Shown here: positions 20,049 through 21,095 of the stretch, piece after piece
Position numbering within the stretch: position 1 is the stretch's first letter
How the letters are laid out: every line of letters starts with the position of its first letter
Assembly (NCBI GenBank): GCA_018823175.1
Contig: JAHJIY010000008.1
Span: forward strand, 1 to 64,000
Direction: 5' to 3'
Origin: Pseudomonadota bacterium
GTDB lineage: Bacteria > Desulfobacterota > Desulfobulbia > Desulfobulbales > JAHJIY01
DNA length: 64,000 nucleotides
Translations under genes and position numbers: made by a program
Notes under the pieces: model-generated
Seen by the model: only the letters and a program-made list of their open reading frames with translations
Database searches by the model: none
What the model was told of the DNA's origin: nothing

Positions 20049-20321
20049 CTATTTGAGAATCAAGGCGGCACCCTCAAAGATGGCCTGGGCCACCTTCTTT
20101 CTGGCCGAGCCCAGAAGCCGTTGCACCGTCCCCCGGGAGACCCCCATTTTCAAGCCGGCCTCTTCCTGAAATAAACCTTCATAATCACTGAGTTTTAATG
20201 CTTCCAGTTCGTCTTGTTCAATTGAAATATGGACCAGCTGGCTGAGCGGCGTGCCGGTTGGCTTGAAGGCCTGACCCTGCATCTGGCAGCCGCAGTGTCT
20301 CGGTTTTTTAGGTCTGGGCAT
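20049..20321 (-). CDS. DUF134 helix-turn-helix regulator
   Basis: The 90-residue protein begins MPRPKKPRHCGCQMQGQAFK, typical of DUF134. It ends in a sigma-region-4-like HTH: LSDYEGLFQEEAGLKMGVSR, then GTVQRLLGSARKKVAQAI. The start is ATG 20321, preceded by a G6 ribosome-binding site. The frame extends upstream through an operator, which I take as non-coding. It is divergent from a NifX/NafY-like gene, a common DUF134 partnership. Two identical 16-bp palindromes lie between the two genes, and I infer that it binds them and represses both. Conserved cysteines near the start suggest a metal or Fe-S sensor. Confidence 0.9.
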   Translation of the reverse strand: MPRPKKPRHCGCQMQGQAFKPTGTPLSQLVHISIEQDELEALKLSDYEGLFQEEAGLKMGVSRGTVQRLLGSARKKVAQAIFEGAALILK

Positions 20322-20359
20322 ATGCCCCCCTTTTTTGAGGTAGATGTTTGTTCCGGTTA

Positions 20360-20375
20360 TTGTGCATATGCACAA
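20360..20375. promoter_or_regulatory. Operator copy 1 (perfect 16-bp palindrome)
   Basis: TTGTGCATATGCACAA is a perfect palindrome 39 bp upstream of the DUF134 start codon. The identical sequence recurs 50 bp to the right (centre to centre, close to five helical turns). Confidence 0.85.
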
Positions 20376-20383
20376 AATAAAAC

Positions 20384-20411
20384 TTGACAGGCAGCCGCAG
20401 GGTATTATTTT
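20384..20411 (+). promoter_or_regulatory. Promoter of the NifX-like gene
   Basis: TTGACA (20384-20389) and TATTTT (20406-20411) are spaced 16 bases apart. The -10 region overlaps the left edge of operator copy 2, so bound repressor would block polymerase. Confidence 0.6.
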
Positions 20412-20425
20412 GTGCATATGCACAA
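20410..20425. promoter_or_regulatory. Operator copy 2 (perfect 16-bp palindrome)
   Basis: A second exact copy of TTGTGCATATGCACAA lies across the -10/start region of the rightward promoter, 54 bp before the NifX-like start codon. Confidence 0.85.
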
Positions 20426-20478
20426 TAAATTCTTTTTTATATAATCAGACCTTTATTAAATTTCAACAGGAGAAGTTG

Positions 20479-20877
20479 ATGACAATCGAAAAGATAGCTG
20501 TTCCATCTAATACCCCCGGCGGGCTTGATAGTGTGATGTCGGATCATTTTGGTCATTGTGATCTTTTTACGATTCTAACCATGCAGGGCAAGGAAATTAT
20601 CGAGGTCAGCACGGTCAATAATGTCGAGCATGGCGCCGGTGGTTGTCTGGCCCCGATCAATCTGCTGGCCGAAAGGGGGGTAAATTCCATTGTGGTTTCC
20701 GGGATGGGCAAGAGGCCGTTGGCCGGTTTTCAGGAAGTCGGGATCAAGGTTTTCTGGACCGCTTTGTCACCCAAGCCGACGATCAAAGAATTGGTCGAGG
20801 ATTTCTGTAACACCACTCGGCAACCGATGGAATTAATTCAGGCGTGTAAGGGGAGCGGTAATTGTCATAACCATTAA
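20479..20877 (+). CDS. NifX/NafY-like (dinitrogenase iron-molybdenum cofactor family) protein
   Basis: The 132-residue protein belongs to the NifB/NifX/VnfX domain family. MTIEKIAVPSNTPGGLDSVM is followed by SDHFGHCDLFTI, where H and C are candidate metal ligands. NVEHGAGGCLAPINLLAERG and VVSGMGKRPLAGF form the usual core, and the tail CKGSGNCHNH is Cys/His-rich. Start ATG 20479 has AGGAGA seven bases upstream. Such stand-alone proteins occur widely in anaerobes without nitrogenase and probably bind Fe-S or metal clusters. Divergence from DUF134 with shared palindromes indicates joint regulation. Confidence 0.88.
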   Translation: MTIEKIAVPSNTPGGLDSVMSDHFGHCDLFTILTMQGKEIIEVSTVNNVEHGAGGCLAPINLLAERGVNSIVVSGMGKRPLAGFQEVGIKVFWTALSPKPTIKELVEDFCNTTRQPMELIQACKGSGNCHNH

Positions 20878-21047
20878 TTAGTGTCTGTCCATAAATGGTC
20901 TTTTTCTCCGATAACTTCGTTGCTGCGGTTTCTGAAAGTGCTCACGGACACTAGTCCGCGAAGTTTATGCCCGGTTTTTTGGGGTGCTTTTCAAAATCCT
21001 AGCGCCTCGTTCTCGAACAAAAATCCTCATTTCTGGACAGACACTAA
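20878..21047. mobile_element. MITE-like element, 170 bp, 19-bp terminal inverted repeats
   Basis: Left end TTAGTGTCTGTCCATAAAT (20878-20896) and right end ATTTCTGGACAGACACTAA (21029-21047) are inverted copies with one mismatch. The interior is non-coding. A third copy of the same end sequence occurs alone at 43032-43050. It begins one base after the NifX-like stop codon. Confidence 0.7.
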
Positions 21048-21095
21048 CTACTGAAACGTGGTGCAAAAACGGTTCTTTGGTTTTTGCCCCGCGGC

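Follow-up and report, generated by a model that had tools for sequence, protein, structure and literature searches.

A shared palindrome as the predicted operator of DUF134 proteins and NifX-like genes in Bacteria and Archaea

Introduction

In the window analysed here, a contiguous stretch of 64,000 nucleotides, the genes for a small protein of the DUF134 family and for a NifX-like protein are arranged divergently, and two copies of a 16-bp palindrome, TTGTGCATATGCACAA, lie between them. This arrangement raises the question whether the palindrome is the DNA site of the DUF134 protein and, if so, how its binding would affect the two genes. A search of the open literature revealed no published operator, regulon or function for DUF134. 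An initial annotation of this DNA had proposed a specific DUF134 site, and we followed this proposal from the protein side as well as from the DNA side.

Results

The DUF134/NifX locus

The features of the locus are as follows.

20049–20321, minus strand: DUF134 (UPF0251/COG1342) gene, 90 aa, with the recognition helix SRGTVQR and an N-terminal Cys-Gly-Cys (PF02001, E 7.8e-22)
20360–20375, no strand assigned: operator 1, exact copy of TTGTGCATATGCACAA, 38–39 bp before the ATG of DUF134, on the upstream side of the nifX −35
20384–20411, plus strand: predicted sigma70 promoter of the NifX-like gene, TTGACA at 20384–20389, 16 bp, TATTTT at 20406–20411 (10/12 in the consensus scan)
20410–20425, no strand assigned: operator 2, exact copy of TTGTGCATATGCACAA, at the −10/+1 edge of the NifX-like promoter
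20479–20877, plus strand: NifX-like gene (PF02579, dinitrogenase FeMo-cofactor fold), 132 aa, E 4e-16, with the C/H-rich tail CKGSGNCHNH

Both family assignments are clear, with 78.1 bits over residues 3–90 for PF02001 (gathering score 27) and 59.5 bits for PF02579 (gathering score 26.3). The exact repetition of the palindrome reported in the initial annotation was recovered, as was the distance of 39 bp from the near edge of the left copy to the DUF134 start. The distance of 50 bp from start to start had been equated with about five helical turns; at 10.5 bp per turn it makes 4.8, slightly short of five. The right copy, described as lying on the −10 of the rightward promoter, touches the last two −10 bases but is placed at the −10/+1 edge and not squarely on the −10. 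For the leftward DUF134 promoter, the promoter scan of the window gave no good −35.

While shuffled sequences predict 0.24 16-mers with up to three mismatches in the window, two were found, both of them exact. These are also the sole exact copies in the whole 4.1-Mb genome, where the next best match has three mismatches. The DUF134 gene is single-copy in this genome, and among its four PF02579 genes only the one in the window has a TTGTGCATATGCACAA site. Directly after the stop codon of the NifX-like gene, positions 20875–21055 harbour a MITE-like element about 170 bp long. Its inverted ends are TTAGTGTCTGTCCA...TGGACAGACACTAA, and the genome has 43 matches to it, more than 20 of them nearly full length.

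Structure and relatives of DUF134

Structure prediction from the single DUF134 sequence was poor (pLDDT 60), and a model based on an alignment of 56 sequences was used instead (pLDDT 92). It comprises a single helix-turn-helix (HTH) with a last helix of 21 residues and short flanking strands. Ser62 and Thr65 are invariant and Arg63 is nearly invariant among the 56 members, and the protein of the window shows the sigma-region-4-like HTH whose recognition helix reads S-R-x-T. In profile and fold searches, the best matches among solved structures were HTHs of sigma region 4 and of DeoR. Closest by profile are the DeoR/SorC repressors (Bacillus subtilis DeoR, PDB 7bhy, 8r7y; E 2e-7), in which the helix SRPTVSRLL aligns with SRGTVQRLL of DUF134. 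A palindromic operator and repression are further common traits, which for DUF134 are predicted. DeoR possesses a large sugar-binding effector domain, whereas DUF134 is a stand-alone HTH of 90 aa with short flanking strands.

Two other assignments were excluded. With 90 aa and a region-4-like HTH only, DUF134 lacks region 2 and is by its domain content not a sigma factor; it is not a Tfx protein either, as a Pfam scan detected no Tfx C-terminal domain. The Tfx family (EnfR/TON_1525, MTH0916) nevertheless resembles DUF134 in consisting of small archaeal regulators with a sigma-region-4-like HTH, and EnfR binds a pseudo-palindrome as a dimer and represses (PMC10570040). Unlike DUF134, Tfx proteins have a C-terminal fold of their own, a 36-bp site and other targets (codh cluster), and the fold match between the families is weak.

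Recognition-helix classes and their palindromes

A PF02001 search of 345 genomes of the window's phylum was positive for 134 (about 39%). The top 8-mer palindrome upstream of DUF134 genes was GCATATGC, which occurred within 100 bp of 27 of the 133 genes compared to 0.26 in dinucleotide shuffles and which forms the common core of the window operator and two sister operators. By their recognition helices, the DUF134 proteins can be sorted into five or more classes, and to each belongs a distinct 16-bp palindrome of one shared geometry. Matches of 13/16 were counted in the 150 bp upstream of 116 non-redundant proteins, with shuffle means of ≤0.3 that overstate independence because the compared sequences are related.

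SR[QAP]TFGR class: operator ATGAGCATATGCTCAT, 36/51
SRQTFGN class: operator ATTGGCATATGCCAAT, 7/7
SQPTFHR class: operator ATGAATATATATTCAT, 8/8
SRHTFGR class: operator ATGCTCATATGAGCAT, 7/9
SRGT[VLIF][QW]R class (that of the window): operator TTGTGCATATGCACAA, 2/10 family-selected genes with the site directly upstream of DUF134

The resulting class-by-motif table is near diagonal; it is descriptive for the non-SRGT classes, since their motifs were derived from the same loci as counted, and only the SRGT motif, taken from the window, was truly tested elsewhere. Counts off the diagonal come mostly from the mixed "other" class, from isolated cases and from AGC and GGC, two motifs that resemble each other. 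The SRHTYGR protein of locus L135 falls outside the SRHTFGR group in the tree, yet has the same ATGCTC operator, one indication that the operator follows the helix rather than ancestry. No shared upstream palindrome was found for SRPTVTR proteins (four loci and others) or for ARTTVQS proteins (five loci). Ten SQPTFHR DUF134-NifX fusions all carry an upstream [AT]TGAATATATATTCA[AT], and the same site was seen with an SQPTLHR protein from an Asgard (Hermodarchaeota) genome, L164.

The low count for the SRGT class is due to the site usually preceding nifX in this class. In most SRGT genomes it is located in front of a nifX-DUF134 operon, less often in front of DUF134 itself, and none of the 133 family-selected loci shows the divergent arrangement of the window. 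In a quick tree, SRGT proteins of Bacteria and Archaea form one group of 29 rows (support 85), which is unsure owing to the few alignment columns. DUF134/NifX pairs devoid of any conserved palindrome, named in the initial annotation as the outcome that would speak against a shared operator, are not what was found overall, but five relatives of the same order whose DUF134 is of the SRGT class lack any site with up to one mismatch. Two of these five show 12/16 look-alikes in front of NifX genes, and a search of the DUF134 and NifX genes of the nearest same-order relatives for an alternative palindrome gave no convincing result.

Promoter geometry

An exact TTGACA is present at most 40 bp upstream of 51 of the 82 DUF134-class operators, compared to 0.93 expected from shuffles. 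The gaps between TTGACA and operator peak at 4, 10–11 and 20–23 bp, so that the operators are located in the promoter spacer or over the −10 and the start; operator 2, which starts 20 bp after its TTGACA, belongs to the last of these gap classes. The operators thus appear to occupy the positions expected for repression by occlusion. A location in the own promoter with overlap of RNA polymerase contacts, as for an autorepressor, is seen with this close upstream TTGACA and with the intergenic position of both window operators.

Operator pairs that enclose a TTGACA were found repeatedly. Their spacing in SRGT loci is 50 bp (window and L294), 56 bp (L360 and L361) and 57 bp (L105), and in SR[QAP]T loci, with TTGACA on either strand, 53 bp (L237 and L213) and 49 bp (L243); in L295 the two operators are 48 bp apart. 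This recurrence points to two-site repression as a repeated design. Of the cooperative or looping repression suggested for the window, the paired operators bracketing a −35 were found again in several loci, but a loop depending strictly on helical phase is not supported because the spacings of 48–57 bp cover almost one helical turn, and looping of this kind was given less weight.

The geometry also bears on activation, in which the HTH at operator 1 would recruit RNA polymerase to nifX while operator 2 would provide feedback repression. The −35 of nifX does lie downstream of operator 1, with about 16 bp between TTGACA and the centre of the operator, and the DUF134 HTH matches sigma region 4. 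Nevertheless, we consider activation improbable, as activators seldom act from the spacer or the −10/+1, the positions of most single operators, and many of the promoters have a full TTGACA. DUF134 is most likely a dimeric HTH auto-repressor of NifX-like and Fe–S carrier genes.

Distribution of the palindrome

A blind scan for exact TTGTGCATATGCACAA, independent of any protein, in 84,980 species genomes yielded at least 118 sites in at least 116 loci. Among the 118 sites listed, 14 precede a DUF134 or NifX-like gene by at most 150 bp, whereas positions drawn at random from the same loci gave 1.0 (maximum 6), and a DUF134 or NifX-like (PF02579) gene is present in 23 of the 116 listed loci. The bacterial hosts among those listed include Deltaproteobacteria, Spirochaetota, Ignavibacteriota and Bacillota, the archaeal ones Thermococci and Bathy-, Geo-, Hermod- and Thorarchaeota (Asgard included). 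Thermococci have second sites on other contigs, and these too are located in front of PF02579 genes. Most other exact matches, in loci without a DUF134 or NifX gene, are taken as background. With up to one mismatch the site was found in 15 of the 345 phylum genomes, whereas a reversed control pattern was found in one genome; in 10 of the 15 it precedes nifX and/or DUF134.

In eight Paenibacillaceae loci, TTGTGCATATGCACAA occurs near a conserved GAATTTCGTC/TCATCAATATTTATT stretch without DUF134, and in the two loci tested it is located about 70 bp upstream of a gene for a GntP-family permease. Here it is the site of an unrelated regulator. In four Bacillaceae loci the 16-mer is embedded in longer terminator-like hairpins. 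An extension of the DUF134 regulon to these Paenibacillus and Bacillaceae matches was rejected in view of the GntP-permease promoter site and the hairpins.

The occurrence of the same 16-mer before GntP-permease genes in Paenibacillus, together with its TGTG...CACA look, raises the possibility that the palindrome belongs to another regulator, e.g. of the CRP/FNR type, and lies near DUF134 by chance. This we regard as quite unlikely. In five classes, a different recognition helix of DUF134 goes with a different site, and DUF134 loci hold the sites in the window's genome and, with few exceptions, in the 13 class-B genomes that were searched. A CRP site has a core spacing of 6 bp; here the spacing is 4 bp.

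A role of operator 2 in the nifX leader RNA, as the hairpin of an attenuator or terminator, would fit the scan, which lists 20410–20425 as terminator-like with a T-rich tail, and the hairpins around some Bacillaceae copies. It can be dismissed almost entirely, as the operator at −10/+1 would be mostly untranscribed, an identical copy lies upstream of the promoter at 20360, and what is conserved is a DNA sequence tied to the HTH class and not a stem.

The pair of 16-mers in the window is very probably the binding site of a DUF134 family regulator. The specific DUF134 site shared with NifX-like genes, as first proposed, gains strong support from conservation across phyla and in Archaea, from its covariation with the recognition helix and from its overlap with promoters.

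Target genes and signal

A PF02579 domain is fused in one reading frame to 22 of the 133 family-selected DUF134 genes, and 40 others adjoin a PF02579 gene. Elsewhere, genes for Mrp/NBP35 carriers and ferredoxin-MinD ATPases (orange-protein type) were found beside the site or in the same cluster, furthermore one cation-efflux gene and one DUF364 gene for heavy-metal chelation. The common theme of these predicted targets is metal-sulphur cofactor handling, and together with the NifX-like genes they point to metal or Fe–S status as the putative signal.

Solved relatives of the NifX-like protein include 1t3v, 1o13, PH0822, MTH1175 and the ORP protein 2wfb. Compared to MrpORP (NF041136; Mrp ATPase plus ORP domain, score >450), it reached 54 bits over the ORP part only and does not belong to that group. 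The kind of target, PF02579 proteins and Mrp/MinD ATPases, is shared with the orp operons of Desulfovibrio vulgaris (orange protein, MrpORP), which are controlled by the sigma54 activator DVU2106 with IHF (PMC3897727). Their control differs from that predicted for DUF134 loci, and no DUF134 protein has been described there.

A response to metal or Fe–S through the conserved cysteines, as initially suggested, agrees with the nature of the target genes and with the presence of N-terminal cysteines in 24/24 bacterial SRGT members, but 0/10 archaeal members have them. Because all ten archaeal SRGT proteins lack them, a role of these cysteines as the general sensor is excluded. The DUF134-NifX fusions hint at the NifX domain instead, and we infer that the fused domain is the better candidate for a general sensor.

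Discussion

Taken together, we propose with a probability of roughly 0.83 that DUF134 is a small dimeric HTH repressor which uses the two 16-bp palindromes to occlude RNA polymerase and so to repress both the gene that encodes it and the divergent NifX-like gene. A DUF134 dimer would bind directly to both identical palindromes and, once bound, would block RNA polymerase at both promoters. Release would be triggered by the status of a metal, a metal-sulphur or an Fe–S cofactor. This signal would probably be sensed via the NifX-like partner, or via the NifX domain where it is fused, and in bacteria the N-terminal cysteines may contribute to sensing.

Small HTH repressors that bind palindromes are a known kind of regulator. 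As far as could be tested, the assignment of the DUF134 family to this kind, the operator common to two domains of life and the code between helix and operator are new. More tentatively, and with somewhat less than even confidence, the comparison of loci allows a broader view, in which DUF134 proteins are cross-domain regulators whose NifX-type domain, fused or separate, governs DNA binding in response to a metal-sulphur cofactor that it senses. The helix residue that follows S-R (or S-Q) would then correspond by a simple code to the variable triplet of the 16-bp palindrome (mostly nTGNNNAT half-sites).

With the operator, the class-by-class code and the targets, DUF134, a family which about 39% of the 345 genomes from the phylum possess and which also occurs in Archaea, becomes a predicted regulator of genes for metal-cofactor and Fe–S carriers. 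The operator geometry is common to Bacteria and Archaea despite their differing promoters, and the helix/operator code may serve as a compact natural data set of how one HTH shifts its DNA specificity while it keeps the geometry of its operator.
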